A DNA stretch of 64,000 bases, taken from the NCBI RefSeq assembly GCF_034092395.1, contig NZ_CP139301.1, positions 62,001 to 126,000 of the forward strand, written 5' to 3'. Source of the DNA: Prochlorococcus sp. MIT 1307. Its GTDB lineage: Bacteria; Cyanobacteriota; Cyanobacteriia; PCC-6307; Cyanobiaceae. Both the position numbers and the translations under genes were made by a program. Shown here one piece after another: positions 1-35,633 of the stretch. Below the pieces are notes generated by a model. It worked only from the letters and a program-made list of their open reading frames with translations, was not told where the DNA came from and did not search any database. Every line of letters starts with the position of its first letter. The first letter of the stretch is position 1.

Positions 1-149
1 ATTTCCGTTGCCATTGCCATTGCCATTTCCGTTGCCATTGCCATTGCCGTTGCCATTTCCGTTGCCATTGCCATTGCCATTGCCATTGCCGTTGCCATTT
101 CCGTTGCCATTTCCGTTGCCATTGCCATTGCCATTTCCGTTGCCATTGC
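1..149 (-). repeat. Tandem hexamer repeat encoding (Gly-Asn)n
   Basis: Imperfect six-base units (GGCAAT, GGAAAT, GGCAAC on the minus strand) repeat to the window edge. All stay in frame with the pilin-like gene. The sequence varies only at codon third positions, so the amino-acid pattern seems to be selected rather than the DNA repeat. Confidence 0.9.
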
Positions 150-753
150 CGGATTCTGAATCAGCTTCACAAGTTATATAGGGTTTAGCTCCTTTTTCAT
201 CGACTTTGGAAGAATATTCTTTGACAATAGCAATACCATCAATAGGGTTATAGCAACCAAGGACTGCACTTCCATCACTTGCATATTCCCCTCCATTTGG
301 ATTGGCTTTTACTTGATAAATGGACTTGTTGTCATCAGTACTAATCTTTCTCATTTCAACTTTGTAATTTCCTGATGCTGAATAAAAAAGGGCATCATTT
401 TTATTAACTGAAACAGGAGTTGAGCCTTTACAAACTGAACTGCCTTCTGTTTCAACATAGTTAGCGTTACATTTCTGGATTTTTACAAATTTTGAAAGCT
501 GCCCCATATCTTCTGGAAGTCCTGCGTACAAGGCATAATTAGATTGAGCAGCTTTTATCATTGAATCAACGATCCCAGATGCTTCCTTTTGCTTGAATTT
601 ATTAAGAACAGGCTTAAATTGGGGGACAGCTATCGAAGAAATGGCACCAAAAATCATTATTACAACAATAAATTCCAAATAAGTAAATCCTTCTTCTTCT
701 GTTTTTTCTGAAAAGAAGGAGTTACTTATTTGTTTTAGAGATTGTTTTCTCAC
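1..753 (-). CDS. Type IV pilin-like protein with Gly-Asn repeat tail (3' end outside window)
   Basis: The frame is open from a GTG at 751-753 to the window edge (251 codons, no stop). About 23 residues in is a prepilin cleavage motif, [10 protein letters not shown], followed by a hydrophobic helix ([18 protein letters not shown]). The Glu at position 5 of the mature protein is present, so this is a class III-signal pilin or pseudopilin. The globular part has several Cys. The C-terminus is a run of alternating Gly and Asn. It follows the 786-1610 gene by 32 bases on the same strand, so the two are probably co-transcribed. Pilin-like identity is well supported. Whether it forms fibres is unknown. 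Confidence 0.8.
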
Positions 754-1976: not shown

Positions 1977-2050
1977 CGGGGCGTGGCGCAGTTTGGTAGC
2001 GCGGGTGCTTTGGGAGCACTAGGTCGCAGGTTCGAATCCTGTCGCCCCGA
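1977..2050 (+). tRNA. tRNA-Pro (anticodon UGG)
   Basis: The sequence folds as a full cloverleaf. The acceptor stem CGGGGCG pairs with CGCCCCG (2043-2049), with discriminator A at 2050. The anticodon stem GGTGC/GCACT encloses loop TTTGGGA, giving anticodon TGG. The T arm is GCAGG-TTCGAAT-CCTGT. No CCA is encoded. Its 3' half is the integration target of the element to its right. Confidence 0.97.
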
Positions 2051-2052
2051 CT
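2006..2052 (+). repeat. Left attachment site (attL): 3' part of tRNA-Pro
   Basis: These 47 bases, from the anticodon stem to two bases past the tRNA, recur without mismatch at 26932-26978. The tRNA stays whole on this side. That is the usual outcome of tyrosine-recombinase integration into a tRNA 3' end. Confidence 0.92.
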
Positions 2053-4215: not shown

Positions 4216-4509
4216 TTAGCGCTTTTTAGCGGTTGACAATTTGGTTAACTTTTTAGCCTGCTGTGCTTGCTCTTTTAGCCATACATCAGGGTCAAAATCA
4301 CGGATTGGATTGGTCGCTCTCCACTGAATGTTGTACATGATGTGCCTGGCAAGAGACATCTTCCCTCTGGGCTTCATGTTGAGGTGAAGCTTCCCTTCTA
4401 CATCTTCTAAGAAATCGTCTAAATAGCCGAGATCTTTCATCTTGTAGAGCTGACTTCGAGACGAATACCCAAGGAACTTGGCCGCTTCTGTGAAGGTACA
4501 AATCATCAT
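4216..4509 (-). CDS. HTH protein next to capsid gene, possible packaging or excision protein
   Basis: 97 residues from the Met at 4509; an upstream Met would add an unlikely hydrophobic stretch. The N-terminal motif CTFTEAAKFLGYSSRSQLYK is an excisionase/MerR-like helix-turn-helix. The rest is basic, with a conserved MKPRGKMSLARH block. A paralogue with the same layout lies at 33749-34027. It follows the capsid gene on the same strand, 80 bases away, so a small-terminase-like or regulatory role is possible. That role is inference. Confidence 0.65.
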   Translation of the reverse strand: MMICTFTEAAKFLGYSSRSQLYKMKDLGYLDDFLEDVEGKLHLNMKPRGKMSLARHIMYNIQWRATNPIRDFDPDVWLKEQAQQAKKLTKLSTAKKR

Positions 4510-4589
4510 TGGTTTAATTCCATAGAAAAAAGGCGGGGCCAACCAGGAGGAGACCACCACAGAATCCCCCTATCAACCCCGCCAAGCTC

Positions 4590-6197
4590 TTAAGACGCGA
4601 TTGCGTCCTTCATGGCAGCAAAGGATTCAGCATGTCTGACAGCAATGTCGATTGACTGCAAAGCCCGTATGCCAACAGTGCCTTTGGCGATGTCGGTGTA
4701 TGGATCGACCAGCACTTCGAGTGATCCCCACATGCCGATCAACAAGTCTTTGAAATTGCCGTAAAGGATTGCACTCAAGCCACTGCCTGAACCTTTTGTG
4801 AGGTCAGAAGGAACGTTGTTAGATACGTGGAAACGTCTTGAAAGAATCTGCTGCTTGCCTAACTCAGCACCATATGGAGAAAGGATGTAATCACCATTGG
4901 AGTCTTTGAGTTTGTGGACTGCACCTTCAACCTTTGCATTTGTTAGGAACGCACAGTTTTCGAGATCAGCATTGTCAACAGAGACAGCTTTTTTGAGGTC
5001 TACAAAATCATCCAAATCAGCCGCGGCTCCATTGGTCCCACCTGCTACAGATCCAATACCAGTTGTGTTGAGGATGCCTAAAGGTTGAGAACTTGAACCA
5101 CTGCCGTTAATTGCAGCTACATCAATACCTTCAGCAATCTTGGCGATGATGTCTGATTTGATCAGTTCCTCGATTTCTGGAGTGGACTGCAGAGACATCA
5201 AATGGCTGTACTTGCTGTATGCCCCGATAGTCTTTGGCTGCATGGAGATATTGCGCAGAGTGCCTGTTGATTCAGTCACGCTGTCAGCGTCATCAGCTCC
5301 AATCCAATAGGTAGTAGAGGAAGCATTTCTTGCAGGAATGTCTACGTTGCCAACCAATCCAGGCAACATGCGAGCACCTAATTCAACGACAGCAGAGCTT
5401 GGTCTTAAAGACTCAACGAACTGATCTGCGAGGTGTTCTGTAGCGACTGCATAACCACCTGCTGATGCAGAGGATGTGACATAAGCACGCTTGCTCCAAG
5501 CATTATTTGGGACGAGGAAACCTTGTGAACGCTTGCCAGTTTGTAGCTGCAATTCTTGGTTAACTTCTCGCTCAAGACCAGCTTGCGACCAATCGCCAGA
5601 GACAGAAGCTTGAATTGCTCTGACCATGCTGAAGTCTCTTGTCGCGTCTCGATATTCTGCGGATTGCCAATCGTTAGAGATGGTTTCTACTTCTTTGGGG
5701 ATTGAGGCAGTCATAGGTTCTGAATAAGAGGGGTGTGATCGGTGAATACCAATCGAGTTGTCACTTGGTACAGCGACCAAGGAGATCTCCACTGGTTGCC
5801 AGCGGGTCACTAAGGTTTTGCCGTCGTCGGTGTATTCGCTTTCGTTGATTTGATACCCAACCGAAATGTTCTGGAGGATTCCTTGTGTGACTTCTTTTCT
5901 CTTGGCAATAGCTTCATCAGATGTTCCCCAGCGAACAGTTGCTCGTCCTTTTTCATTAACGATTTCGGCAGATTCAACAACACCTAAAACTTCATTCGGT
6001 TGATGGTTCCAAAGGAAGGGCGCCCCATCATTTAGACGAGATAGATCAACGGCTTCCCTTTTATGAGAGAGCACTTCATCTCCTAGTGGAGTAGGGACTG
6101 GATTCTCTGAACTAAAAGACAGGTTAAAAGTGTCGCTATCAGCCGCCTTGGAATCGAGATCTAAGAATCTTGTCTTAATCGCTGTATCCGTAGTCAT
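4590..6197 (-). CDS. HK97-type prohead protease fused to major capsid protein
   Basis: 535 residues. Residues about 20-160 look like an S78-type prohead protease (APFLWNHQPNEVLGVVES with the His, NISVGYQI with the Ser, EISLVAVPSD). Residues about 230-530 are an HK97-fold capsid protein, with VVELGARMLPG, a Gly/Ser-rich glycine loop region (GSGSSSQPLGIL) and DIAVRHAESFAAM at the end. Protease-capsid fusions are known in phages and in capsid-encoding satellites. No portal, large terminase or tail genes are in the element, so packaging would need a helper phage or the missing parts elsewhere. Intact frame, no truncation. Confidence 0.92.
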   Translation of the reverse strand: MTTDTAIKTRFLDLDSKAADSDTFNLSFSSENPVPTPLGDEVLSHKREAVDLSRLNDGAPFLWNHQPNEVLGVVESAEIVNEKGRATVRWGTSDEAIAKRKEVTQGILQNISVGYQINESEYTDDGKTLVTRWQPVEISLVAVPSDNSIGIHRSHPSYSEPMTASIPKEVETISNDWQSAEYRDATRDFSMVRAIQASVSGDWSQAGLEREVNQELQLQTGKRSQGFLVPNNAWSKRAYVTSSASAGGYAVATEHLADQFVESLRPSSAVVELGARMLPGLVGNVDIPARNASSTTYWIGADDADSVTESTGTLRNISMQPKTIGAYSKYSHLMSLQSTPEIEELIKSDIIAKIAEGIDVAAINGSGSSSQPLGILNTTGIGSVAGGTNGAAADLDDFVDLKKAVSVDNADLENCAFLTNAKVEGAVHKLKDSNGDYILSPYGAELGKQQILSRRFHVSNNVPSDLTKGSGSGLSAILYGNFKDLLIGMWGSLEVLVDPYTDIAKGTVGIRALQSIDIAVRHAESFAAMKDAIAS

Positions 6198-6530
6198 CCT
6201 TTGAGTCCTCTATGAGTATTTTTTGGAAACGGCGAAATTGAGCCGATGAAAGTGAGTCTTCCAATGGATCAGAACGCGATGGCCTGTCATCACCCATAGG
6301 ATTTACGACTAAAATTAAAGTGGTCATATGGCTGATCTTAGAGTTTTTTGATCCCTATAAATGGCTGCAAATACTAGGGTTTTCAAGGCGAAAGCTTATT
6401 TATCATTAAGTCGCCGCTAATGTTTTTTATTTGACGCTATTGATTTGCTAAATAGCTCTTAAATGCGCTTAATTGCCGCTAATTAAATATTTCAATATGC
6501 TTATTGAAGATCAATAGAAGAATGGATTAG
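6198..6530. other. Intergenic region upstream of the capsid gene
   Basis: It holds the divergent promoter region for the capsid operon and the small membrane genes. The right part (about 6451-6505) has an AT-rich segment, TCTTAAATGCGCTTAATTGC plus TATTTCAATATGCTTAT, that recurs at about 7130-7180. Both copies precede small membrane-protein genes, so it may be a shared promoter or leader. Confidence 0.5.
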
Positions 6531-6809
6531 ATGCATATTCCCTCTATTTTGCTTGAGATTGGTCCTTTCTCTGACCCTATGACTTTTAGTGGCTTGTGGT
6601 TCGCAAGTTGGCTATTTACTTGGTTTTCAGGCGTAAGTTTTAACCATGTTATGAATAAAGAGATGTATTCAACAATGGCTTACTCCGAAAGCGGAAAAAA
6701 AATCAATAGGAATGGAGATACACCAAAAGCTGTTTGGGTGGCAGCTTTATGGGCATTACCACTTGCTATCTACATTTCTCATGCTTGGAATAGATGTCCA
6801 GTTAACTAA
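6531..6809 (+). CDS. Small membrane protein (92 aa)
   Basis: Two hydrophobic segments (FSGLWFASWLFTWFSGVSF and WVAALWALPLAIYISHAW) flank a polar loop. It is followed after two bases by another membrane-protein gene. Unknown function; part of a run of four tiny genes in the element. Confidence 0.6.
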   Translation: MHIPSILLEIGPFSDPMTFSGLWFASWLFTWFSGVSFNHVMNKEMYSTMAYSESGKKINRNGDTPKAVWVAALWALPLAIYISHAWNRCPVN

Positions 6810-6811
6810 AG

Positions 6812-7036
6812 ATGTTTGCAATCATTACTTTCCTTATTGGCTTATTCCTCGGCTGGGTTTTAACTTGCAGACGTTGGAACAAGGTCGAAAAACAGATAGA
6901 GAAAGAGAGAAGAAATGAGGAATCTAGATTGAGGCGTACCCCTGACAAGGAGCTTTCGCAAGTTGATCTATTAAGGAAACGCTGTCTAGAAGCTGAGTTT
7001 AAGGAGTTAGAGGAAACGCTTAAACGTCCAGTCTGA
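6812..7036 (+). CDS. Small membrane-anchored coiled-coil protein (74 aa)
   Basis: An N-terminal helix (MFAIITFLIGLFLGWVLTC) is followed by a highly charged, Glu/Lys/Arg-rich stretch likely to form a coiled coil. It directly follows the 6531 gene. The topology of one anchor plus a charged rod resembles phage spanin or lysis-accessory proteins, but that is only a shape similarity. Confidence 0.55.
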   Translation: MFAIITFLIGLFLGWVLTCRRWNKVEKQIEKERRNEESRLRRTPDKELSQVDLLRKRCLEAEFKELEETLKRPV

Positions 7037-7183
7037 TCTTCTCAACCTAGCGATCACAACAAAAGTCCTTAATCAACTCTTATTTATCGTTGATAGGTTT
7101 TAATTACCTCTAGTAATTAGCTATATAGATCTTAAATGCGCTTAATTGCCATTATTTAAATATTTCAATATGCTTATCAAGCT

Positions 7184-7348
7184 ATGAAAAAGTTTTTAAA
7201 TAGATTGAAAGCCGTTCTTAACGGTCAAGATTTCCTCTATGACGATGGAGAGAAGTACTTAAACCAGCCATTTGAGAAGCCGAAACTTCACGGTTGTCCG
7301 CTTCCATTACCTGAGATTCGAACCAAAGACAAATGGGATCAAACTTAG
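7184..7348 (+). CDS. Hypothetical small protein (54 aa)
   Basis: ATG to TAG, beginning MKKFLNRLKAVLNGQDF. Its last codons overlap the start of the next gene in another frame (ATG at 7333). A similar overlapping small frame precedes the paralogous gene at 42635, so the two-gene arrangement seems conserved. Soluble, basic. Confidence 0.45.
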   Translation: MKKFLNRLKAVLNGQDFLYDDGEKYLNQPFEKPKLHGCPLPLPEIRTKDKWDQT

Positions 7349-7611
7349 ATAAAGCTCTTAAAACAGTTGCAACACTTGCGCTCTGCGTGATTGCTGTTCA
7401 GTTGATCCCGATTTCTAAGCGTCATCAGCTTGAATATTTATGCTCTGTTAATAACTCAATAAAAACATCATTCGGACCAAGATCACGAAAACTTTCCGCT
7501 TATGATGAGATAGGAAAAAACGTTACCAAAATCGAGTCGATCGCCGGCTATTCCTATAAAAAAAATAGTTTTATGGTTTCAGATTTTTGCTCTGAACTTA
7601 AAAAGTTTTAG
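7333..7611 (+). CDS. Small exported or anchored protein with LALxVIAVQLIP motif, copy 1
   Basis: 92 residues with an N-terminal hydrophobic helix (TVATLALCVIAVQLIPISK) and two Cys in the outer part. The paralogue at 42635-42901 shares ALxVIAVQLIPxS and the same length. No known domain. The start overlaps the previous gene. Confidence 0.6.
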   Translation: MGSNLDKALKTVATLALCVIAVQLIPISKRHQLEYLCSVNNSIKTSFGPRSRKLSAYDEIGKNVTKIESIAGYSYKKNSFMVSDFCSELKKF

Positions 7612-8888
7612 TTATCCCCTATACCCGCACACCTAGGAAAACCTCTTTTACCTCTATAAACCCACTTAGGACGACCACCAACTTCAATACCTAACTTCTG
7701 TTTTTTGCGCTCAATCACTTCCTCTACAAAGAGATCCATCAAGACAGCTCTTGTATGTTCCTTGTTCTTACCAAAGTGGACTGCAACTTCTTCAATCGTT
7801 CTCCACTCTTCTGATTCAGACAAGTAAAGCTCTGCATAACTCCTCAAATCCTTTTTAACGGAAGGGAGCAATTCCTCTTCTCCAGTAACGCTCTCAAACA
7901 CCCAGGAAAGATCTTCCTTGTTTCCCTCAAGATTCCAACAAGTCCCGACTTCACAGTTCCTAGCTTTCTCTAAACAAGACAGAACGAATTGGCACTGTTT
8001 TGGCGTTGAATTTGGTGCTCGTGAAATTGCCCACACATCACTAACAGCACCAACCTGAGTACCAGCGCCCAGAATATCGAACATGGATACATCACCCCTT
8101 TGTTGATGTTCTGGTTTTCGCAAGTGGGAAGTAATAACAATGAGAATATTTTTCCTGCTGGCAAGGTTGTTGAGGTCATATAAAGGTTTTGCAAACTCAG
8201 GATCTTTTATTGAGACTCCACGATTTGCCAGGAGTGTGGTCACACTGTCCAACATGACAACGCCATAGCCACCCTCATCAATCAGTCGTTCAAGGCGTGG
8301 AAGATCGAGGCTGTTAAATCCGTCTTCGCCAAAAACAAAATCAAAGGCATCCTGGGTTAAACCCATGATTTTGCACTTACGCCAACAATCATTTTTAGGT
8401 TCATCCGCTTGAACAAAAAGCACCCTGCTTTTCTTTGTTGTGAGCTGGCCTATTCCTTCTTTATTCTTTAAAAACGGTTCTCCCTTCCCAATGCAGGAAG
8501 CAAGTGAGTAAAGGAAGGTTGTTTTTCCAGTTCCAACATCTGCCGCGAGACTTACCAACGCACCTTTAGCCCCAAAAGAATCAACAATCCATTCAGCGTT
8601 TTCTCTTGATTTGAGCAATTCGCCTACAGAAATAGGTTTCCCTAGGTCAGAGGGAATAGGGGCTTTTCTTGGTTTTACTTTCCCTAGATGTTTCCCTAGT
8701 GGTTTTCCTGTGTGTGTGGGTATAGGCCTTTTCCCTTCACGTTCCTCACGATCTCGTTTTTGAAGCTCAGCTTTTAAATCAGTTGAATAGTCATAGCCCT
8801 CTCTTTGTATGTGATCCCTTGGCAAAACTCCTAAAAGGATCAGTCTTTCAAAGGAATCTGTGTGATCGTTAAAAACCCTTCTAGACAT
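7608..8888 (-). CDS. RepA-like AAA ATPase (AAA_25 type) with C-terminal winged helix
   Basis: 426 residues. After a charged N-terminal region come Walker A (ADVGTGKTTFLYSLAS), a VLFVQADEP strand, Walker B (GVVMLDSVTT) and a sensor-like ILIVITSHLRKPE. This is the RecA-fold arrangement of RepA/RSF1010-type hexameric helicases. The C-terminal ~90 residues look like a winged helix ending GGRPKWVYRG. It probably loads or drives replication of the excised element. A fragment of a related protein's C-terminus lies at 35634-35819. It overlaps the upstream small gene by eight bases, an operon sign. Confidence 0.85.
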   Translation of the reverse strand: MSRRVFNDHTDSFERLILLGVLPRDHIQREGYDYSTDLKAELQKRDREEREGKRPIPTHTGKPLGKHLGKVKPRKAPIPSDLGKPISVGELLKSRENAEWIVDSFGAKGALVSLAADVGTGKTTFLYSLASCIGKGEPFLKNKEGIGQLTTKKSRVLFVQADEPKNDCWRKCKIMGLTQDAFDFVFGEDGFNSLDLPRLERLIDEGGYGVVMLDSVTTLLANRGVSIKDPEFAKPLYDLNNLASRKNILIVITSHLRKPEHQQRGDVSMFDILGAGTQVGAVSDVWAISRAPNSTPKQCQFVLSCLEKARNCEVGTCWNLEGNKEDLSWVFESVTGEEELLPSVKKDLRSYAELYLSESEEWRTIEEVAVHFGKNKEHTRAVLMDLFVEEVIERKKQKLGIEVGGRPKWVYRGKRGFPRCAGIGDN

Positions 8889-9048
8889 CGAATGGCCTCC
8901 AAATTGATAGTTGCTCCTTAAGCGTCAGATCGTTTTTTTCAGCAATAACTTTGATGGCAACAGTCAGCGCCAAGTCACGCCAAACAGGATGCAAAATTGC
9001 ATCAGTATTCTTTAGGACTTCACCGAAGCCCGGTAATTCTTGATCCAT
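8881..9048 (-). CDS. Small protein encoded upstream of the RepA-like ATPase
   Basis: 55 residues from Met at 9048 (MDQELPGFGEVLKN). I chose this start because the preceding frame ends just before it. Its stop overlaps the start of the ATPase gene, implying coupling. No family recognised; a replication accessory role is only suggested by position. Confidence 0.55.
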   Translation of the reverse strand: MDQELPGFGEVLKNTDAILHPVWRDLALTVAIKVIAEKNDLTLKEQLSIWRPFDV

Positions 9049-9049
9049 C

Positions 9050-9225
9050 TCATCGGCCCTCCAACTTCTCAAGCCGCTCAGAGAACGCCTTCATTTGGGC
9101 GAGTTGAGTTGCTCTTAATTCTTCAACTGCTGCTGTTGCGGCATGGACTGCTGCGGTGCATTGATGTAGAGCATCAGAGTTGATGGCATGCCCTTCTTGG
9201 CTTTATGACTATTTTTGGCGGCCAT
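9050..9225 (-). pseudogene. Small gene upstream of the replication operon, apparently frameshifted
   Basis: The start at 9225 reads MAAKNSHKAKKG and then runs to an early stop. After a shift near 9188 another frame reads INSDALHQCTAAVHAATAAV and continues as a helix to a TGA at 9050, next to the following ATG. The Lys-rich start plus helix suggests one original ~57-residue protein. A sequencing error or programmed shift is also possible. Confidence 0.4.
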
Positions 9226-10105: not shown

Positions 10106-11011
10106 ATGGACCCAAATAATGCGCAAGAAGCCAGTCAGCAAAAGTCTTCAGATGAGTTGTCTGCGGTAGTAGACATCCTGTGCGAAACCTTTGATGAGAT
10201 TGAAAGTCGTTCTCTTGGAACTTCTGCTGCTGGTATCCCAGTCAATTTCTATGACTTTGATGCCATGACTCAAGGTCTACAACGAGGAGATTTAATTGTC
10301 ATTGGTGGTAGGCCAGCAATGGGGAAAACATCCATGTCGCTGAACATGGCGAAGAATGTTGCTCAATTACATGACCTTCCAGTTTGCATCTTTGGCTTTG
10401 AGATGGGCAAAGAGCAATTGACCTATCGCCTGCTTTCGATGGAAGTCGGCATCGAGACAGGAAGACTGAGGACTGGTCGACTCCAACAAGAGGAATGGAC
10501 GTTATTGGAGGAAGGAATTAATTGTCTTGGTCAAATGCCTATTTTCATCAGTGATAAAGCCACAATCACTGTCGAAGGAATGGTTGCTAAATGTCAGCAG
10601 ATCCAAGAGAGACAAAAGAAAGAGTTGGGACTTGTTGTTATTGACTATGTGCAACTAATGGATGGACCAAACAAAGCATCCCGCGATGAAGAGCTTTCGA
10701 AAATCATTGTGGATTTAAAAGAGATGGCAAAAACTTTGCAGGTTCCAATCCTTTTGTTATCTCAGATCACACGAGCTGTTGAGCATCGCAATAACAAACG
10801 CCCCATGCTCAGTGATTTAAGAGAAACCGCATCACTAGAAAGTCATGCGGACATAGTGGTGATGATCTATCGAGATGAGTACTACCACCCTGAATCAGAA
10901 GATCGAGGCATTACAGAATTGATCATCTGCAAACACAGAAATGGTCCTGTTGGAACAGTGAAATTACTTTTTGAACCCCAATACACTCGCTTTCGGAACC
11001 TTGCTATCTAA
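10106..11011 (+). CDS. DnaB-type replicative helicase C-terminal domain protein
   Basis: 301 residues. It has only the RecA-like ATPase half of DnaB: Walker A GGRPAMGKTSMSLNMAK, FGFEMGKEQLTYRLLS, Walker B LGLVVIDYVQLM, PILLLSQITRAVE, LRETASLESHADIVVMIYRD and the final CKHRNGPVGT. The N-terminal primase-interacting domain of chromosomal DnaB is missing, as in several phage and element helicases. It likely unwinds the element during replication. The next gene follows on the same strand. Confidence 0.93.
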   Translation: MDPNNAQEASQQKSSDELSAVVDILCETFDEIESRSLGTSAAGIPVNFYDFDAMTQGLQRGDLIVIGGRPAMGKTSMSLNMAKNVAQLHDLPVCIFGFEMGKEQLTYRLLSMEVGIETGRLRTGRLQQEEWTLLEEGINCLGQMPIFISDKATITVEGMVAKCQQIQERQKKELGLVVIDYVQLMDGPNKASRDEELSKIIVDLKEMAKTLQVPILLLSQITRAVEHRNNKRPMLSDLRETASLESHADIVVMIYRDEYYHPESEDRGITELIICKHRNGPVGTVKLLFEPQYTRFRNLAI

Positions 11012-11183
11012 ATTCGTATTAAAATCTAAAAACCTAAACAATTATGATTTTAGTGTGTCTAGCCCATATAGCGAGCTGAGATATTTGGATGTTACCGGGT
11101 CGGGTATAGGTAGGAAAAGTATCGAAATCTCATTTCAGTTTCTGCAAAAGCATGAACTTGAAATTGAAGAAGAATCAAATCAG

Positions 11184-12362
11184 ATGGATCAAAGCCTTTG
11201 GGCAATGAGTCGTAATCAACCAGATTCTTCAGAAGCATTACTTTGTCTGAGATGCAGGGTGAGCCATCCAATTGCTCAGAAGGTCAATCTAATATTTAAT
11301 AATTTTCGCGATAAGTATGAACTTGAATTAAAAGACATGTTGGTCTATGTGCTTGATGACACAGGAGAAGTCTTTTTGAGAAGCTCTTATAAAACGGATG
11401 AAGATAGTAATGAGATTCGGCGTCAACCTCTTAATTGGAACACCCTCTTAGAAATGGCCGACAAAGGAATCAGGCCATTTAGTACAGACATCATTCATAG
11501 TTTTGACCCTGATTTATCTGGTCTATCTACTTGGGCTAAAAATAAAGTGCAGGCCAATTCAGATCTCAAAACCTATTTACGTAGTTGTGGTTTGCTGCTG
11601 ATTAGTCCATGGGCTCTCATTGCAGATAGCACTCCTACGCGAGTGAGAGAAGCCTGGTCACGTTGTGGCGATGGGAATATACAGGTTATGGAAATGGAGA
11701 GTTTGCATCGCTCTTATTTAAGTAATTACAAAGCTGCAAAAGAGGTTTATAGGAAGAGCACAGGGAAAGCTACTGGCTGGGTTCCAGATGCTGAATTCCT
11801 TGCATCATTAAATCCACCTCAAAAGAACAGAGAGAACCTGGCGTTACTTGATCAAGCAATCCGTCAATATCTTGTCGGGACCAATTTCACTCGTCAATTT
11901 AAAGAAGGAGAAGAAGCCTTATTGCAGAGTGCTCCATCCACTAGTAGTGAATCCTCCAATTCGGATCTAGTCCAATCCATTCATCAAGCGCTTCAACGCT
12001 CAACACAACCAATCGTGAAAGCTGCGATTGAGTCAGATCGTCCTCGATGGGAGAAAGATCCTAGTCGTGAATTGGCTTGGCAGCTTTATGGACAGGGTCT
12101 TGGGCAAAGAGAAATAGCGACACGGTGTGATCACAAACAAGCTTGGGTTAGCAAGCTACTACTTGAGAAGACGCTTTCAGAAAACATTGCGCAAGAAGCA
12201 GCGGTTGCTCTTGTAAGACGTTCTGAATTCAAACCGCTACTTAAAGATCCAGCTGGTGTAGACCGCATGATTGAAGAATTACGGAATTATTTGGTGTCAT
12301 CAGAACAAAAAGGCAATACCTCTCTTCTTAGGCAAGCAGTCCATGAGGCTCTGCAATCATGA
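11184..12362 (+). CDS. Sigma-70-like cyanobacterial regulator with C-terminal HTH
   Basis: The frame is open from a TTG at 10971, which overlaps the helicase gene. I prefer the ATG at 11184 (MDQSLWAMSRN) because the extra N-terminus looks non-protein-like; starts are uncertain. The C-terminal part (ELAWQLYGQGLGQREIATRC then KQAWVSKLL) resembles sigma region 4. The middle (LLLISPWALIADSTPTRVRE) fits the divergent sigma-like proteins that precede DUF1822 and CHAT genes in other cyanobacteria. It overlaps the DUF1822-like gene by four bases. It may direct transcription of the cassette. Family assignment is from memory of pattern, not a search. Confidence 0.55.
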   Translation: MDQSLWAMSRNQPDSSEALLCLRCRVSHPIAQKVNLIFNNFRDKYELELKDMLVYVLDDTGEVFLRSSYKTDEDSNEIRRQPLNWNTLLEMADKGIRPFSTDIIHSFDPDLSGLSTWAKNKVQANSDLKTYLRSCGLLLISPWALIADSTPTRVREAWSRCGDGNIQVMEMESLHRSYLSNYKAAKEVYRKSTGKATGWVPDAEFLASLNPPQKNRENLALLDQAIRQYLVGTNFTRQFKEGEEALLQSAPSTSSESSNSDLVQSIHQALQRSTQPIVKAAIESDRPRWEKDPSRELAWQLYGQGLGQREIATRCDHKQAWVSKLLLEKTLSENIAQEAAVALVRRSEFKPLLKDPAGVDRMIEELRNYLVSSEQKGNTSLLRQAVHEALQS

Positions 12363-19448: not shown

Positions 19449-20831
19449 ATGAACGGTACTCAAAAAGTACCTGTAACTATCCTTACGGGATTTCTTGGTT
19501 CTGGAAAGACGACTCTTCTTAACAAGATTCTGAGTGAAGAACACGGTAAACGAATCGCCGTCATCGAAAATGAATATGGTGAAGTTGGAATTGATCAGGG
19601 ACTGGTGATCAATGCTGACGAAGAGGTTTTTGAGATGTCCAACGGATGCATCTGCTGCACCGTTCGAGGCGATCTAATTCGCGTACTTGGGAACCTCATG
19701 AAGAGACGCGATAAGTTCGATTATGTATTGGTTGAGACCACGGGGCTTGCCGACCCCGGTCCTGTTGCTCAAACATTCTTCATGGACGATGAAATTCGTT
19801 CAGAATTTTCACTCGATGGGATCGTTACGCTTGTTGATGCAGCTCATATTGATCAGCAATTGGGACGCAGTGATGAGAGTTCCGAGCAGGTTGCATTTGC
19901 CGACGTACTGGTTCTGAACAAAACTGATCTCGTTTCTGATGAGTCACTCGATACTCTTGAAGCACGACTACGTGACATGAACCGTATGGCGCGTGTCGTA
20001 CGTAGTAAGCAAGCGGATGTCTCTGTTGAAACTGTTCTAAACCTCGGTGCTTTTGACCTTGACCAGGTTTTGGAGCGGCGCCCCAGCTTCCTAGAACCAG
20101 AGTATCCATTCGAGTGGACGGGTGTTTTTCTACTTGAGCCTGGTCGTTACGAAGTTAGTCTCGAAGAGGGGCCTGACCCGATGATGTCTCTCGTCGTTGT
20201 AGCTGACCAAGGTACAGACGAAGAATCTCTCAATGAAGGTGCAGAATCATGTGTGCGACTTTACGCTGAATCTGCTGAACTCCTACATCCAGGTGACAAA
20301 ATCCCACTGAATAAGCATGTGAACCTTCAGCTGCAGTCCGAGGGGCGCAAGTCGTTTTCGCTTGAAGTTGAAAAATCTGGACATCTTGGTTTATTCACTC
20401 AGCACACGGCCGAGGAATTCGATATCAAAGTAAGAAGAATGGATACTTCAGTTTCTGAGTCAGGAAGTAATCAACAGAATGATCTTTTAATTCCTCCTAT
20501 AGCAGAGCGAACTTGGGTAGCACAACACGAACACGATGATGAAGTGGGTTCAATTGCTATTGAGCGGAATGGCAATGTCGATCCTGAAAAGCTCAACACT
20601 TGGCTGAGCCGACTTCTCTCAGAGAAAGGTGTGGACATCTTTCGCATGAAGGGTTTCATCAGCTTTGCCGACGAGCCGCGGAGAATAGTTTTTCAAGGTG
20701 TACATATGCTCTTTACCTCACAGCCTGATAGGGAGTGGGGTAATGAACCTCGCCGAAATCAACTCGTGTTTATCGGTCGGAACCTTGATGAAGAGGCCTT
20801 GCAAAGTGGGTTCGACAAATGCCTGACATAA
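19449..20831 (+). CDS. COG0523 (CobW/ZNG1-type) zinc metallochaperone GTPase
   Basis: 460 residues. P-loop GFLGSGKTTLLNK near residue 14, the family CxCC motif NGCICCTVRGD near 66, and NKTD (VLNKTDLV) near 155. The C-terminal CobW domain ends FQGVHMLFTSQPDREWG. Between about 215 and 330 is an inserted domain starting FEWTGVFLLEPGRYEVSLEE and ending LGLFTQHTAEEF; a similar one lies inside ZnuA in this element. His-rich AQHEHDDE follows. Predicted to hand zinc to target proteins under zinc shortage. First gene of a two-gene unit with the WD40 protein. Confidence 0.9.
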   Translation: MNGTQKVPVTILTGFLGSGKTTLLNKILSEEHGKRIAVIENEYGEVGIDQGLVINADEEVFEMSNGCICCTVRGDLIRVLGNLMKRRDKFDYVLVETTGLADPGPVAQTFFMDDEIRSEFSLDGIVTLVDAAHIDQQLGRSDESSEQVAFADVLVLNKTDLVSDESLDTLEARLRDMNRMARVVRSKQADVSVETVLNLGAFDLDQVLERRPSFLEPEYPFEWTGVFLLEPGRYEVSLEEGPDPMMSLVVVADQGTDEESLNEGAESCVRLYAESAELLHPGDKIPLNKHVNLQLQSEGRKSFSLEVEKSGHLGLFTQHTAEEFDIKVRRMDTSVSESGSNQQNDLLIPPIAERTWVAQHEHDDEVGSIAIERNGNVDPEKLNTWLSRLLSEKGVDIFRMKGFISFADEPRRIVFQGVHMLFTSQPDREWGNEPRRNQLVFIGRNLDEEALQSGFDKCLT

Positions 20832-21898
20832 GAGAACTCGGCCCTCAGGGTCGGGGGATGCTGCACGAGGGGTGGAGTACTGAAGTCGCCGATTATGTCA
20901 TTGTTTGCGGATGGGCACTAGAAGGTAATGCTTTTTTGGTGGGTGATGCTGCAGGAGGCCTTTATGCCTTTGAAGGCAAGTCTGGAACCACCCTTTGGCA
21001 TCGAAAGGAAGTCCATGAAGGTGGCTTACTTGCGATGTCCATTCATCCAGATGGAGATATTTTTGCTACTGCAGGTCAGGATGGACGTGTTCTGATTTGG
21101 AAGAGTAAAGAAGGTGAGTCAAATAAGGCATTAGAACTTGGTAAAGGATGGGTCGAACATCTCCAATGGTCACCAGATGGACAATTCTTAGCCGTAGTCT
21201 TTTCGCAGTACGTCTATGTTTTTGGTGCTGATGGGGAAGAACATTGGCGCTCAGATAAACATCCTAGTACTGTCAGCGCGGTTGCTTGGTCAAAGTCGAA
21301 TGAATTAGCAACTGCATGCTACGGCCGAGTCACTTTTTATGATGTAATTCGTGACCAGGTCAATCAGAAGCTGGAATGGCAAGGCTCACTCGTGTCGATG
21401 GTGCTTAGCCCTGATGGCGACATTGTGGCTTGCGGTAGTCAAGACAATTCTGTTCATTTCTGGAGACGTTCAACTGCGCAAGATGCTGAAATGACTGGGT
21501 ATCCATGCAAGCCAAGTCAACTAGCATTTGATCAAACCGGCATGGTTCTTGCCACTGGAGGAGGTGAACGAATAACAGTTTGGAGTTTTCAAGGCAATGG
21601 TCCTGAAGGAACGGTACCAGGAGAGTTAGACCTTCACATTGGAGCGATTTCTAGCCTCGCTTTCTCCAATCGAGGGTCACTATTAGCCTCTGGATCAAGG
21701 GATGGTTCGGTTTTTGTTTGGCTTCTCCAGAAGAATGGTCATGGTGAGCCACTTGGCGGTGCATTCGTAGGAGGCCGTGTCGAAGCAATTGCTTGGCGAC
21801 CTGATGACTGTGCTCTAGCTGCCGTTAATGCAAACGGAGGAATTAATGTTTGGGATTTTAAAAATCGCATAAAAACATCTCCTAAAGGATTTTCATAA
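20819..21898 (+). CDS. WD40-repeat protein of the zinc operon
   Basis: 359 residues forming about seven WD-type blades (LLAMSIHPDGDIFATAGQDG, SLVSMVLSPDGDIVACGSQD, ISSLAFSNRGSLLASGSRDG). The start overlaps the end of the GTPase gene by 13 bases, so the two are co-translated. WD40 partners of COG0523 GTPases occur in other cyanobacterial zinc clusters. It is presumably a scaffold for a zinc-dependent target. Followed by a terminator. Confidence 0.88.
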   Translation: MPDIRELGPQGRGMLHEGWSTEVADYVIVCGWALEGNAFLVGDAAGGLYAFEGKSGTTLWHRKEVHEGGLLAMSIHPDGDIFATAGQDGRVLIWKSKEGESNKALELGKGWVEHLQWSPDGQFLAVVFSQYVYVFGADGEEHWRSDKHPSTVSAVAWSKSNELATACYGRVTFYDVIRDQVNQKLEWQGSLVSMVLSPDGDIVACGSQDNSVHFWRRSTAQDAEMTGYPCKPSQLAFDQTGMVLATGGGERITVWSFQGNGPEGTVPGELDLHIGAISSLAFSNRGSLLASGSRDGSVFVWLLQKNGHGEPLGGAFVGGRVEAIAWRPDDCALAAVNANGGINVWDFKNRIKTSPKGFS

Positions 21899-21943
21899 AT
21901 CGAATACAACTGCGAAATCGTCCTCCTACTCCAATCTTGTTAC

Positions 21944-21967
21944 ACCCCTGCTTAGTCAGGGTTTTTT
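21944..21967 (+). terminator. Terminator of the ZNG1-WD40 operon
   Basis: CCCTG (21946-21950) pairs with CAGGG (21957-21961) around CTTAGT, followed by six T. Confidence 0.85.
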
Positions 21968-22037
21968 ATGCACAAAGTTCTGCCTTTTAGTTTAAAAGCA
22001 AGCCAATAACTTCGTAGGTCTAATTACACAAAACAGA

Positions 22038-22874
22038 TCAATTATTTCTTTTTCTAGGTAACAATCCTATTAAGAGAATGCATAAAACAGCGACAAGGGG
22101 ACCTGGAGACATATTGAAAGTAAGCGCAAGCAAAAAACCTAAAACTGAGATTAAAGATCCAAACATTGCAGATCTAACCATAGCAACCCATAAAGATGGG
22201 GCTTGTTGCAGACCTAATAAGGCAGGAGTGGAAAGCAAAGCAATTACAAGGATGACTCCAATTGCAGACATTGAACTAACAATAACAAGCGCAGTCGTAA
22301 GGCCAAGCAGTAAATTTAAATAAGACACTTTTATGCCACTGTCAGAAGCTCCTTCCGGGTCTAATCCAATATGTACAAGCTTTTCGTAACCAAAAAGTAT
22401 CAAAGAAATAAATACTAAGAAAGAAATAATAGTTCTTGTTAAGTCGCCTAAATTTGCAGTTAATAAATCACCAAATAGAACAGATTCTAAATCGATCCTA
22501 ATTCCAAGAAGAGGTATAAGAAGAACACCAAGTCCAAGAGAACCAGCAAGAATTGTATTCATTATTGCTTCATAATTTTCATTTTTTTTGTTGGTTAATG
22601 CTTCTGCTGCAAGAGATCCAAACAATCCACTGAAAACACCACCTATGGAAGGACTAACGCCAAGTGCTACTGCCAAAGCCAACCCTGGCAGGACACAATG
22701 AGAGATTAAATTAACTTGCAGAAGTCGCTTATGGGTAATTAATACAGTGCCCATCGCCGGGCAAAGTATTCCTGTCATTAGAATTACGCAAAAAGGAATT
22801 AACCACCAAGTTTCTAGGGTTGAGTAAAGATTAAGCACGGCAATAGCTACCATGCATACAGCTAAATGAATCAA
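22038..22874 (-). CDS. znuB: Zinc ABC transporter permease ZnuB
   Basis: 278 residues with about eight hydrophobic helices. Typical ABC-3 family features: CPAMGTVLITHKRLLQVNLI at the start, and the LLGLTTALVIVSSMSAIGVI and LVIALLSTPALLGLQQ blocks near the end. It overlaps the end of znuC by 44 bases on the same strand. It forms the membrane channel of the ZnuABC importer. Confidence 0.93.
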   Translation of the reverse strand: MIHLAVCMVAIAVLNLYSTLETWWLIPFCVILMTGILCPAMGTVLITHKRLLQVNLISHCVLPGLALAVALGVSPSIGGVFSGLFGSLAAEALTNKKNENYEAIMNTILAGSLGLGVLLIPLLGIRIDLESVLFGDLLTANLGDLTRTIISFLVFISLILFGYEKLVHIGLDPEGASDSGIKVSYLNLLLGLTTALVIVSSMSAIGVILVIALLSTPALLGLQQAPSLWVAMVRSAMFGSLISVLGFLLALTFNMSPGPLVAVLCILLIGLLPRKRNN

Positions 22875-23535
22875 GCTTTTCTTTCACTACTTCAGGAGTA
22901 CCAGAAGCCAAAACATGCTTATCCAAAGCAACGACCTTGTCATACGCGTTTAGAGATGTACCCCAATCGTGACTACTAACAAAAAGTGATAACCCAGCTT
23001 CAGCCAGCTGGCGAATGATTAATAGAAAGTCTTCTCTTGCAGGTGGATCTAAAGCAGAACAAGGTTCATCAAGAAGCAAGATTTTTGCTGGTGTCATTAA
23101 AGTTTTTGCAAGTAATGCTCTTTGTTGTTGCCCGCCAGATAATGAATCGAGTCTCCTTTTTCCTAAATCAGATATTCCAACTCGTTGTAGTGCAGCTTCT
23201 ACTTCGCAACATGTTGATCTTGAATGATTCACTCGTCCTAACGCAACCAATCCTTCAACAGTGATTGGAAAATTCCAGTTCAACTTTCCTCTTTGAGGCA
23301 TTAGAGAAATTTGGGATCGACTATCAAGCAACGGATGACTATCAATGGTGATTTCACCTTTGTCAGGCTTACTGCGGCCTTGAAGTAGACCTAGCAATGT
23401 TGACTTACCAGCACCATTTGGACCAACAAGTGCAGTCAAAGTTCCAGGTTTGAGCTCAACTGAGACCTCATCCAAAACAAGTTGACTTTGCCTTGAATAG
23501 GAATATGTCAAATTTTCAGCAATCAAACTGGCCAT
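22831..23535 (-). CDS. znuC: Zinc ABC transporter ATP-binding protein ZnuC
   Basis: 234 residues from Met at 23535 (MASLIAENLTYSY). Upstream in-frame codons would overlap znuA's promoter. Walker A GPNGAGKST, Q-loop LMPQRG, signature LSGGQQQR, Walker B KILLLDEP and H-loop SSHD are all present. Divergent from znuA across a shared Zur-type box. Confidence 0.95.
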   Translation of the reverse strand: MASLIAENLTYSYSRQSQLVLDEVSVELKPGTLTALVGPNGAGKSTLLGLLQGRSKPDKGEITIDSHPLLDSRSQISLMPQRGKLNWNFPITVEGLVALGRVNHSRSTCCEVEAALQRVGISDLGKRRLDSLSGGQQQRALLAKTLMTPAKILLLDEPCSALDPPAREDFLLIIRQLAEAGLSLFVSSHDWGTSLNAYDKVVALDKHVLASGTPEVVKEKLDSFSCMHGSYCRA

Positions 23536-23582
23536 GAATAGGAGCATTTCCACATGAAACAACAATATGCTTGCCAATATGA

Positions 23583-23601
23583 AATGATAACCATTATCGT
23601 T
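23583..23601 (+). promoter_or_regulatory. Zur-type box between znuC and znuA
   Basis: ATGATAACCATTATCGTT is an AT-rich inverted repeat (TGATAA/TTATC core). It lies between two divergent zinc genes, so one operator could control both. Confidence 0.75.
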
Positions 23602-23625
23602 TAAATCCACATTTGTTCCCTTCGC

Positions 23626-25116
23626 ATGGCAGATCACTTCGGGCAATCAAGCCAGAGAAGGCTTTCGATCAATAGATCAATTTTAAAAACTTCTCTTTTA
23701 GCAGGTGCGGTTTTTTTATCTGGAACAGCTCAAGGAGTTCAAGCCAAGGAGAAAGCAATAGTTGCAATAGAGCCGCTGGTCTGTGACTTGGTCAAGGCAA
23801 TTGCTCCACCTTCAAAGCAAGTTAAGTGTTTGATTGGCAGAAAAGTGGACGTTCATGATGTCAAATTTTCTCCTAGACAGGCTCAAGCTCTAAATAATGC
23901 AAGTCAAGTTTTCACACTTGGTCAAGAGATGACTCCTGCAATAAAAAAATGGCAAGATAATCCCATAACTACTGTTGTCGGTGTAAGTGCAATAGAGATT
24001 GATGACCATGACGATCATGATGACCATGACGACCATGATGAACACTCATCTTCGAAGCATGACGATCATGATGACCACGGCAAAGGTCATGGAGAAGAAG
24101 CTTTTGAATGGGCTGGTGTCTTTGAACTTTCACCAGGAACCTACACATGGTCTTTTGCAAAAGTCGATGGAGACTATGCCGACCCTGCTATGAAAATGGT
24201 CATTCTCAAGTCTGGTGATATTGAAGCATCAGAAGAACTTGCTGAAGAATTATTAGAATCTAAAAATTCAGAATTTAAACGTAATGATGATCAACTTGTT
24301 GCACAGGAAAAAGCATATGTTCTCACATTTAATGAGAGGAAAGAAAGCACAACATTCAATGTAGAAATTAAAAAAGCTGGTAAATATGTATTCTTTACTG
24401 AGCATATGCCCTTTGAGTTTGAAGCCGATGAGCATTTCTTTAAAGATGTTTCAGGCGATGATGTCGAACCGATAGCCCAAGTTCCAGACGAAGGCGGTGA
24501 TCATCATCACCATGACCATGGAGGAGCAGATCCTCATATCTGGCATGATCCTCATAACATTATCAAGATGGGAAATATTATTTCTAGAAGCATCAAGAAG
24601 AACATGTCATTTTTTGATAGAGAAAATAGGAAAATTGTCAGTGAAAGATCTAAATCTGTTAATTCTATTTTAGAAGATTTAGATCAATGGACTCAAAGAC
24701 AAGTATCCACAATTCCTTCTAATCAAAGGACGATCGTTTCTAAGCACAAAGCTATGGAATACTACGGAGATGCGTTTGGTTTGAAAACTATTAGCTTATT
24801 GGATTTTCTTGGTCATTCAGCGAGCCTTAGGCCTCAGACCATTGTCAGAGTATTAGGGGAGCTAAAAGAAGAAAATGTGAAAGTCTTATTTGCTGAGCAA
24901 AAACCTCCTTCGAAATTATTAAAAAACTTGAGTCGGCAAACTTCCACTCCTATAGCAAAACAACAAATTTATGTTGATGGTTTAATGCCAACGGGAAACA
25001 CCATTTCTGTTGCTGTTCATAACACTTGTTCTATTGTTAATTCCTTGGGTGGTTCATGCAATAAGGCCACGGGCGCACAAATTGAAACCAGGTGGGATTC
25101 GTTGACAAAACGTTGA
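23626..25116 (+). CDS. znuA: Zinc-binding lipo/periplasmic protein ZnuA with inserted domain
   Basis: 496 residues, much longer than the ~300 of ordinary ZnuA. Signal peptide LLAGAVFLSGTAQGVQA. Metal-site features: VDVHDVKFSPRQ, DPHIWHDPHN and VSKHKAMEYYGDAFGL. Between the first and second site are a His/Asp-rich loop (DDHDDHDDHDEH...) and a ~120-residue domain beginning FEWAGVFELSPGTYTWSF and ending FFTEHMPFEFEADEHFF, then a second His cluster (HHHHDHGG). The domain resembles the insert in the ZNG1 GTPase of the same element. Captures zinc in the periplasm for ZnuBC. Confidence 0.94.
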   Translation: MADHFGQSSQRRLSINRSILKTSLLAGAVFLSGTAQGVQAKEKAIVAIEPLVCDLVKAIAPPSKQVKCLIGRKVDVHDVKFSPRQAQALNNASQVFTLGQEMTPAIKKWQDNPITTVVGVSAIEIDDHDDHDDHDDHDEHSSSKHDDHDDHGKGHGEEAFEWAGVFELSPGTYTWSFAKVDGDYADPAMKMVILKSGDIEASEELAEELLESKNSEFKRNDDQLVAQEKAYVLTFNERKESTTFNVEIKKAGKYVFFTEHMPFEFEADEHFFKDVSGDDVEPIAQVPDEGGDHHHHDHGGADPHIWHDPHNIIKMGNIISRSIKKNMSFFDRENRKIVSERSKSVNSILEDLDQWTQRQVSTIPSNQRTIVSKHKAMEYYGDAFGLKTISLLDFLGHSASLRPQTIVRVLGELKEENVKVLFAEQKPPSKLLKNLSRQTSTPIAKQQIYVDGLMPTGNTISVAVHNTCSIVNSLGGSCNKATGAQIETRWDSLTKR

Positions 25117-25167: not shown

Positions 25168-25494
25168 ATGTATAGCAAAAAAGGATTCCAGGCCTATAAA
25201 ACATACTGGGAAGATCAAGCAAGTTTCATGGATAAATCTCCATGGAATCTGAAGAAGATCTTAAAACTAACTATCTCAAAAGATTTTAATAGAAATATTG
25301 AAGAACTTGAATTTTCCAATCACTCCATTTCAAGAGAAGAGGGGCAATTAACCTTACGGGTAAATGTTCCTTACAACTACTTTGAACTTGATGGTTTTGA
25401 ATTAAAGGCTATTGAACTCCTTGGTATTGATAAAAATTGGTTAATAGATATGAGCTTAGAAGACTCTAGTTGTACTCATCAATTAACAAGGTAA
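25168..25494 (+). CDS. Hypothetical protein between znuA and integrase (108 aa)
   Basis: Soluble, mixed charged sequence starting MYSKKGFQAYKTYWEDQASF. No domain recognised. Its end overlaps the 3' end of the convergent integrase gene by 16 bases. Possibly a zinc-cluster gene by position only. Confidence 0.5.
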   Translation: MYSKKGFQAYKTYWEDQASFMDKSPWNLKKILKLTISKDFNRNIEELEFSNHSISREEGQLTLRVNVPYNYFELDGFELKAIELLGIDKNWLIDMSLEDSSCTHQLTR

Positions 25495-26765
25495 GAGGTG
25501 AGATCTCTATATCGAATACCGCGCTCCATCGATGCTTCCAGCATTGATTCACTACTCCATTGGGCATAAGCAGCGTTATGCACTTGAACGGTGTGCCCCA
25601 TAAATGCTGCCATTTCTGTATCAGAAAGCTTGTAGACCTGATGCCCTCGTTTGCTGTATGAATGCCGAAAGCTGTAGGGCACGACTCCATTTTCAGCTTT
25701 TAACCTTTTCCAGACTGGGTTAAAGCCCAGGTAATTTTTAAAAGCATCACCAGCTCCTGCCTTCATTCGAGGAAGTGGATCCTTACGTTTGATCCTTTCA
25801 ATTAGCTTCCATTCTTTTTCCCACTCAGGATGCAATGGCCATAATCTTCTTGGTTTAGTAATGCCGCCACCAGCTTTCTTGCAGTAAGTGCAGAAGAGAT
25901 AGTCCTTTCCATTCTTTTTGATCTCTAAATAGTCATAGCTGACTTCAATGGGACGCAATCCATAAACGATTGCAAGCTTGAGAGCTAAATCCCACTTCAT
26001 CGCACGATCCCTTAGGAGGTGTTTCTTCTCAGCCTTATCAATATCAATCGGTAATGAGTTGAGAAGCTCCTTCAGGTCCTCATCTTCTATAACCACAGTC
26101 GGATTAGAGGATTCTTGTTGCTTCTTGGCAGACTTACGTCCCACATAGTCTCCTAGGGCGTTTTTGGGAGGTGGAGTCCAGTTATCAGCAGGCAAAAAAT
26201 GATTTGAGGCTTTAGAGGTGGCCCACCTCAAGAAAGCCGCTATATGTTGCACTTTGATCTGTCTGCTTCTAGACCCTGGTTCGTTTTGTTTGCCAATCTC
26301 AATCAGTAGATCATTAGCATTCGACGCTGCCACTTCCTTGAGTCTGCGGAACGTCTTTCCATATTCGACGTCCCATGTCTTTTGACTCACGTCTCCACTG
26401 ACTTTGACTTTGTAATTTCCATAGCTCTCCCATGCAGTAATTAAAAGTTTTGGATTAGGTCTCCTAGATGCTCTTGGCCCATCAGAGTTTGTCTTTTTAA
26501 CTCGTTCTATAGCTTCATCGAGTGGAACTTTTTTAACCATATGCAGTTCAAAAATTTCATCAGCTAGTTTTCTGATTCTTGGTTCTTGTGCTCTTTCCCA
26601 ATATGCGGGGAGGTTTCTATAAATTCTCGATCCATCTTCTAATCGAATTCCCAAACAAGCTCTCCTACCTTTTCTCTCAATCACCTGCCAATGAGGCGAG
26701 AGATTATCGCGCAAATGAGTTCTAAGGCCCTGTACCCAATCTGGAGAATCAGTTCTAGCTTTCAT
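25479..26765 (-). CDS. Tyrosine recombinase (integrase) of the tRNA-Pro element
   Basis: 428 residues. SAM-like core-binding region about 120-230, catalytic domain 240-420 with Arg (VYGLRPIEV), the YSFRHSYSKRG box, MGHTVQVH and the nucleophile Tyr in NAAYAQW. A His in the usual HxxR position is replaced by Tyr, as in many picocyanobacterial elements. It lies 170 bases from the right attachment site, facing inward. Should catalyse integration and excision at tRNA-Pro. Confidence 0.94.
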   Translation of the reverse strand: MKARTDSPDWVQGLRTHLRDNLSPHWQVIERKGRRACLGIRLEDGSRIYRNLPAYWERAQEPRIRKLADEIFELHMVKKVPLDEAIERVKKTNSDGPRASRRPNPKLLITAWESYGNYKVKVSGDVSQKTWDVEYGKTFRRLKEVAASNANDLLIEIGKQNEPGSRSRQIKVQHIAAFLRWATSKASNHFLPADNWTPPPKNALGDYVGRKSAKKQQESSNPTVVIEDEDLKELLNSLPIDIDKAEKKHLLRDRAMKWDLALKLAIVYGLRPIEVSYDYLEIKKNGKDYLFCTYCKKAGGGITKPRRLWPLHPEWEKEWKLIERIKRKDPLPRMKAGAGDAFKNYLGFNPVWKRLKAENGVVPYSFRHSYSKRGHQVYKLSDTEMAAFMGHTVQVHNAAYAQWSSESMLEASMERGIRYRDLTSYLVN

Positions 26766-26931: not shown

Positions 26932-26978
26932 TGCTTTGGGAGCACTAGGTCGCAGGTTCGAATCCTGTCGCCCCGACT
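26932..26978 (+). repeat. Right attachment site (attR): duplicated tRNA-Pro 3' end
   Basis: Exact 47-base copy of 2006-2052; only the 3' part of the tRNA is present, so this is not a functional gene. Flanks differ on both sides, which defines the repeat limits. Confidence 0.92.
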
Positions 26979-27084
26979 AGGTTTTGGATGATTTGTGTTT
27001 TTGCTCGTGGGCAAAACGTGGGCAAAGAGGGTCGTTTTTGCTAGTTGTTATTGAACGCTGTGGATGAAACGTCATGATGTGGGT

Positions 27085-27198
27085 ATGGAGAACGATTTCG
27101 CCGCCACTATTCAGAAATACATTCTTTATCTGCTTTTAGTGGTGGGTTTGTTCACCACCATTGGGTTGATTGCATTCCTGATCAAACTCATCTTCTAA
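27085..27198 (+). CDS. Small membrane protein, second copy of the element-end gene
   Basis: 37 codons, MENDFAATIQKYILYLLLVV and on, ending in a helix FLIKLIF as in 2159-2272. Same distance from the tRNA fragment as copy 1. It shows that the DNA right of attR once began like an element's left end. Confidence 0.6.
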   Translation: MENDFAATIQKYILYLLLVVGLFTTIGLIAFLIKLIF

Positions 27199-27351: not shown

Positions 27352-27368
27352 ATCAATTTGAAACGGCT

Positions 27369-34837: not shown

Positions 34838-34877
34838 TGGTGCATCTAGTAAGAATCATTTAAGCCTTATCTCCTAA

Positions 34878-35597: not shown

Positions 35598-35633
35598 TAG
35601 TCAGAACACAAACTACTGAACTCACTACACACC

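Follow-up and report, generated by a model that had tools for sequence, protein, structure and literature searches.

Marine picocyanobacteria swap nutrient and defence genes via tRNA islands. Tycheposons, reportedly described by Hackl et al. in Cell in 2023, are said to include viral satellites as well as elements that carry cargo. In later work they were named as proposed phage satellites (PMC11389934, PMC10803314). Among satellites with capsids of their own, capsid-forming PICIs (cf-PICIs) encode portal, connectors, TerS, TerL and HNH (PMC10690885), and so do, for portal and both terminase subunits, the Mulch/Flayer satellites of Streptomyces (PMC10690885). Of the latter, MiniFlayer and MulchRoom possess TerS, TerL, portal and scaffold, and their genomes are linear, with repeats of ∼1 kb at the termini (PMC10690885). 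PICMIs contain no capsid-remodelling genes (PMC10803314), and the integrases of VEIME are described as distinct groups (PMC10187409).

Like cf-PICIs, the picocyanobacterial family reported here is integrative, encodes capsid and head protease and would depend on helpers for tails. Different from cf-PICIs, portal and TerL are both absent from the picocyanobacterial elements, and TerS was found in one contig (L149) only. Since the cf-PICI gene set includes portal, connectors and the two terminase subunits, the family falls outside the cf-PICI definition on the tested features; its way of working may be similar. Judged by gene content, the picocyanobacterial lineage appears more reduced than the published capsid-forming satellites. 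MiniFlayer and MulchRoom also have their own capsid, but are distinguished by TerS, TerL, portal, scaffold and linear genomes. Classical PICIs and SaPIs share Int, Xis and a replication module with the family, and some encode TerS to redirect packaging; however, they remodel helper capsids and have no capsid of their own. PICMIs of Vibrionaceae and VEIME resemble the family in being small, marine and integrative. Charybdis elements (PMC12324425) were considered and set aside, as they lack a hallmark capsid and have an archaeal host.

The Synechococcus siphoviruses S-CBS1 and S-CBS3 encode a homologous protease-capsid. Compared to the family, they are complete phages in which a GpA-type TerL and a lambda-like portal lie upstream of the capsid, and their capsid ORF is 836 aa in length versus about 535–565 aa. 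Tycheposons share the marine picocyanobacterial host, the tRNA-flanked islands and nutrient cargo, and their distinctive tyrosine recombinase may have a counterpart in the divergent integrase found here; as a difference, a single att pair of the element analyzed here encloses both a capsid module and a nutrient cassette. Insertion at tRNA-Pro or tRNA-Ala with att repeats, a tycheposon feature, was observed in these marine picocyanobacteria, and the general satellite features of att sites, own integrase and an incomplete virion gene set were found in this element and its relatives. By host, tRNA sites and cargo, the family appears to fit the satellite branch of tycheposons.

The protease-capsid module and its island

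The window is a stretch of 64,000 nucleotides (C1:62001-126000) from the 2.03-Mb single-contig genome of Prochlorococcus sp. MIT 1307. A first-pass annotation of this DNA had singled out a capsid-HTH pair at 4216-6197. The pair is present, and the element is larger than that span, extending over 25 kb from the tRNA-Pro att to the distal att copy, which is adjoined by the recombinase (Table 1).

Table 1. Features of the tRNA-Pro island, in window positions
Feature	Position	Strand	Evidence and remarks
tRNA-Pro(tgg), integration site	1977..2051	+	ARAGORN; 3' half from 2004 = attL; 47-bp run common with distal copy
Winged-HTH protein (HTH), 96 aa	4216..4506	-	Homologues downstream of capsid in relatives; AlphaFold2 model
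Prohead protease (about 1-150), linker/delta region, HK97-type major capsid protein (mature from about residue 247)	4590..6197	-	Pfam/PHROG
Small conserved ORF c13, 50 aa, DP-ED-L-SAQ-RRY motif	6175..6327	-	Overlaps capsid start by 23 nt
AAA_25 (RepA/DnaB-like) ATPase	7608..8888	-	PF13481 1.5e-19; homologues upstream of capsid in relatives
Small ORF overlapping ATPase start	8881..9072	-	Homologue in same place in L127 (gene clustering)
Zinc-uptake cargo: CobW GTPase, WD40 protein, ZnuB, ZnuC, ZnuA	19449..25116	.	Pfam; within same att pair as capsid
Tyrosine recombinase (integrase) of element	25479..26765	-	In integrase alignment; beside att; catalytic R/K/R/H/Y pattern present
attR, copy of tRNA-Pro 3' end	26932..26978	+	Repeat comparison with tRNA-Pro

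The capsid gene encodes 535 residues, with an S78 protease fused to an HK97-type capsid. It matches Phage_capsid PF05065 (E=1.3e-45) and Peptidase_S78 PF04586 (E=1.7e-6) in Pfam, and PHROG 617 'major head protein' (6.4e-119) and PHROG 4523 'major head and protease protein' (4.2e-35). The catalytic His/Ser/Glu of the protease are intact, and H66, S113 and E137 (L047 numbering) are invariant in the alignment of 17 homologues. These profile matches and the invariant triad confirmed the initial reading that the element codes for its own capsid and maturation protease, and the protein is an ordinary HK97-type capsid. As the alignment with the solved mature capsid of PDB 8gta starts at query residue 247, processing may release a shell protein of about 289 residues; the AlphaFold model of the capsid (pLDDT 50.6) was too poor for use. 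Among phages, it is 34–37% identical to siphovirus capsids, which include those of Synechococcus phages S-CBS1 and S-CBS3 and of CRP-811.

The HTH gene beside the capsid, previously placed at 4216-4560, is real and encodes a winged helix, but its start was corrected: conservation favours 4506, and the 4560 start is probably too early. The AlphaFold2 model shows a winged HTH (wHTH) with a C-terminal helix (pLDDT 85.7), and the gene is conserved downstream of the capsid in the elements with downstream sequence to inspect. Foldseek and PDB fold searches gave no significant match for the HTH protein, HTH_17 and excisionase profiles matched below threshold only, and as a candidate TerS it found nothing significant by sequence profile against PDB or by Foldseek. 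The c13 ORF lies upstream of the capsid with the same overlap in most relatives, and its dN/dS outside the overlap is 0.15–0.49, from few codons. As phages show the same 23-nt overlap at the capsid, c13 was considered as a remnant of the C-terminal end of portal, an idea rejected on an hhalign probability of 0.2%. The ATPase, for which tblastn found no phage match, is a probable replication protein of the module.

A counterpart in the same genus sheds light on the composition of the island. At the same tRNA-Pro, genome G052 has a 22-kb element without capsid, in which an excisionase and a primase-like gene take the place of the capsid module. Its integrase region is 90% identical in DNA to that of the window element, and it contains a stretch 97.5% identical to the zinc cassette. 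Because this counterpart shares integrase and zinc cassette and is free of the capsid module, the window element is a mosaic in which a capsid module stands beside a zinc-uptake cassette. Gene-content comparison with relatives showed that the excisionase-like gene and small upstream genes of compact members are absent from the window element, whose att-bounded length is ∼3 times that of intact members. Its capsid module is oriented opposite to that of the closest relative, L127. An inversion of the module was suspected from its orientation versus L127 and L137; such an event is not required, as L132 shares the window orientation with intact att. Given its 25-kb mosaic make-up, which includes zinc cargo, and the loss of excisionase and most upstream genes, the mobility of the window copy itself appears doubtful: the claim for the family is good, and that of this copy still moving is weak. 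Within the family, the copy probably represents a member that has decayed in part or is burdened by its cargo, and we regard it as rather unlikely that it can still be packaged.

Several other features of the window were recorded. Inside the same island, a large TPR-CHAT (caspase-like) protein is encoded at 14289-17072. The region 10106-13573 holds a gene for a DnaB-like helicase C-domain protein and, after it, two ORFs that overlap each other (463 aa, with a helix-turn-helix-like stretch, and 404 aa); it is perhaps another mobile-element replication module. An integrase C-terminal fragment at 18741-19013 matches 35873-36123 at 94% identity in the inverse orientation, and may mark a hot spot for inversion or the scar left by an older element. 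The sequences past each att, 2006-2433 and 26932-27358, are 77% alike, which would fit a second, same-family element placed in tandem behind the first. A second, degraded satellite occupies 33749-37249, with an HTH paralogue (33749-34027, minus strand), an ATPase fragment (35634-35819, minus), an integrase C-terminal fragment (35805-36131, plus) and an NAD-ligase adenylation-domain gene (36518-37249, plus). The left edge of the window (1-160) is a simple-sequence coding repeat of GCC ATT/TTT CCG units.

Compact relatives and the search for packaging genes

We searched 400 genomes of the family Cyanobiaceae for the capsid and then compared the surroundings of the relatives. A capsid match was present in 49 of the 400 genomes, and 16 near-full-length copies besides that of the window, 51–66% identical, were recovered, two of them on one contig; the named public-genome relatives of the capsid locus are mostly Prochlorococcus. 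Compact att-bounded elements with the same capsid family recur across Prochlorococcus and Synechococcus genomes. At ten picocyanobacterial loci, tRNA-derived direct repeats surround complete capsid elements of 7.1–9.5 kb. Those at tRNA-Pro are L141 (7.3 kb), L137 (8.2 kb), L139 (8.75 kb), L131 (7.8 kb), L130 (8.35 kb), L136 (7.15 kb), L133 (9.5 kb) and L132 (9.4 kb); those at tRNA-Ala are L135 (8.7 kb) and L134 (8.6 kb). Two different elements, L130 and L131, stand in tandem in genome G377. The carrier contigs that end inside the element include L127 and L128.

The layout recurs as well. From the tRNA/att inwards, an excisionase-like wHTH, small genes, a replication gene, an ORF of ∼50 aa and the capsid follow one another, and after the capsid come a wHTH, often an NAD-ligase adenylation-domain gene, a tyrosine recombinase and the second att. 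The replication gene is interchanged among elements, being of AAA_25, VapE-like or DUF3987/primase-helicase type, and L138 uses a large serine recombinase instead of the tyrosine recombinase. The integrase is divergent: no Pfam integrase model matched the recombinase of L137 or of the window, and PHROG 1 matched that of L137 only (7.2e-11). Among six satellite ORFs tested for anti-phage defence cargo, PADLOC gave no matches. Two side features concern the neighbourhoods: at L130, six copies of att are spread over 18 kb and delimit, in addition to the satellite, several short segments, a tRNA-Pro array of mini-elements, and at L134 (734-8824) a capsid-less sister element with integrase, wHTH, zinc finger and ATPase lies beside the capsid satellite at tRNA-Ala.

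The absence of portal, large terminase and tail, asserted earlier for the window element, was borne out by Pfam and PHROG scans. The other scanned ORFs of the element matched no packaging or tail family, and its own 2.03-Mb genome contains neither TerL by four Pfam models (PF05876, PF03354, PF03237 and PF17289) nor portal by PF05136 and PF04860. A terminase or portal elsewhere in the element, named beforehand as refuting, was not found in the scanned element ORFs or the whole genome by these profiles. When the same profiles were run on 15 other carriers, portal was found in none of the 16 genomes in total, and TerL at E<=1e-3 in none of 12 of the 16. Of the TerL models, PF03237 had a match in G296 and one under its cut-off in G278, and PF17289 matched in two genomes, G255 and G261. 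In G261, the deep capsid-clade member L140 has a Terminase_6C-like ORF (6572-8233) located 2.5 kb from the capsid; G261 has members of this family at five further places, perhaps as a repeated element. Because portal was lacking in 16/16 and TerL in 12/16 carrier genomes, these profile searches gave no evident sign of a resident helper.

A pool of 57 additional ORFs, most of them taken from these elements, gave a single packaging match in PHROG, the TerS of L149, and no head or tail families; other matches were helicases, primases and an excisionase-like protein. L149 is a viral contig that has the same capsid and integrase families together with TerS (PHROG 57, 8.4e-27), and no large terminase subunit or portal was found on it. 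In most viral contigs with related capsids, portal, and TerL where the contig reaches, lie directly upstream of the capsid, whereas the same GpA/lambda-type profiles detected no such upstream portal or TerL in the picocyanobacterial elements. Another viral contig, L047 from IMG/VR, is 8,725 bp long; its two ends repeat 99 bp perfectly and it contains one att site, corresponding to a circle of ∼8.6 kb, and its gene order closes into the layout of L132. Assembly of an excised circle, or of a packaged genome that is circularly permuted, would give such a contig.

Capsid lineage and alternative explanations

To place the capsid, a tree of 98 capsids was built by a quick method, with SH-aLRT support and no bootstrap. 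The 19 satellite capsids form one side of one branch (SH-aLRT 99) with no phage members inside, and the 17 main satellite capsids form a clade at 100. The label 'satellite' changes once on the tree, compared to a shuffled mean of 17.6 (0/500). Since this label was set by contig content, partly by absent portal and TerL profiles, the tree is an independent check of it. Among isolates, S-CBS1 and S-CBS3 come nearest to the neighbouring sister group of phages, at 38% identity. The dN/dS of the capsid is 0.11 between the window and L127 and 0.08–0.26 over seven pairs, in which values with dS above 1 are rough; the capsid gene is under purifying selection. Taken together, the tree and the dN/dS values point to one selected capsid lineage of single origin.

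These results bear on whether the capsid-protease and HTH genes are leftovers of a decayed temperate siphovirus. The homology to the capsids of S-CBS1, S-CBS3 and CRP-811 would agree with such a remnant, as would the C-terminal capsid fragments and frameshifted copies that occur in other genomes and the loss of the upstream genes from the window module. However, independent decay would not leave the same ordered gene set between intact tRNA repeats across genera, the capsid clade is monophyletic without phage members, dN/dS is near 0.1, and L047 looks like a circular free form. An ordinary prophage remnant is thus already disfavoured, and we consider it unlikely.

The capsid might instead poison or resize helper assembly without forming a complete shell of its own. 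Satellites commonly remodel helper capsids (PMC11389934, PMC10690885), capsid and protease alone were kept with no portal, and the capsid is coupled to a conserved ORF, c13. Such a decoy seems quite improbable, since conservation of the whole capsid and the protease active site goes beyond dominant-negative needs, and identity below 40% to known cyanosiphovirus capsids makes co-assembly doubtful. HK97-fold shells are also known to be reused as gene-transfer-agent (GTA) or nanocompartment shells, and the shell could have been kept for the host, with its carriage on the island due to chance. Relatedness to the RcGTA capsid can be detected (6tb9, E=1.9e-5) and the window island holds zinc cargo useful to the cell; but no other GTA genes were found, and in the relatives the capsid goes together with genes for integrase, excisionase and replication, which are missing from GTAs, so that domestication is very improbable.

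A satellite origin of the module is, on this evidence, very likely, and the capsid-HTH pair is likely the particle module of a picocyanobacterial phage-satellite family integrating at tRNA genes. The first-pass annotation had proposed a capsid-encoding satellite with borrowed parts. Its satellite reading gained strong support from the att-bounded relatives, the excised-type circle and the single clade, whereas the match to published capsid-encoding satellites is not an exact one, as those possess portal and both terminase subunits (PMC10690885).

Proposed satellite cycle and its meaning

The family most likely consists of satellites that have a shell and protease of their own and rely on the portal, motor and tail of a helper. 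In the cycle that we propose, a helper phage would infect the cell and the integrase would excise the element, the DNA of which would be amplified by its replication protein. The capsid and protease of the element would build a shell, probably smaller than that of the helper, and the shell would be completed with the portal, terminase motor and tail of the helper. The motor of the helper may be directed to satellite DNA by a DNA-binding protein of the satellite (TerS in L149, possibly a wHTH elsewhere). The steps that rest on data are the integration sites, the gene content, the selection acting on the capsid and the excised-type circle. From these we infer particle formation by the element, with helper dependence, assembly of its own shell, size selection and steering of packaging by TerS or wHTH. 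As resident prophages are not evident in most carriers, the helpers would be infecting phages. For the intact relatives, we lean towards a particle completed by the helper.

More speculatively, a satellite lineage with shell and protease only may have been made once from a cyanosiphovirus-like capsid, been long inherited, and build hybrid virions in which a satellite shell sits on the portal, motor and tail of a lytic cyanophage; in the window it would be joined to a zinc-uptake cassette, linking phage piracy to the spread of nutrient genes. We hold this whole picture as a tentative possibility, with the balance against it. A satellite family with its own shell, and with neither portal nor motor, would be a more reduced solution than that of capsid-forming PICIs, and it raises the question of how a satellite shell accepts the portal of another phage. 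It predicts that, after phage infection, element DNA would be found in small particles built from a known protein. Such a family would give a concrete vehicle for the movement of island DNA between cells.
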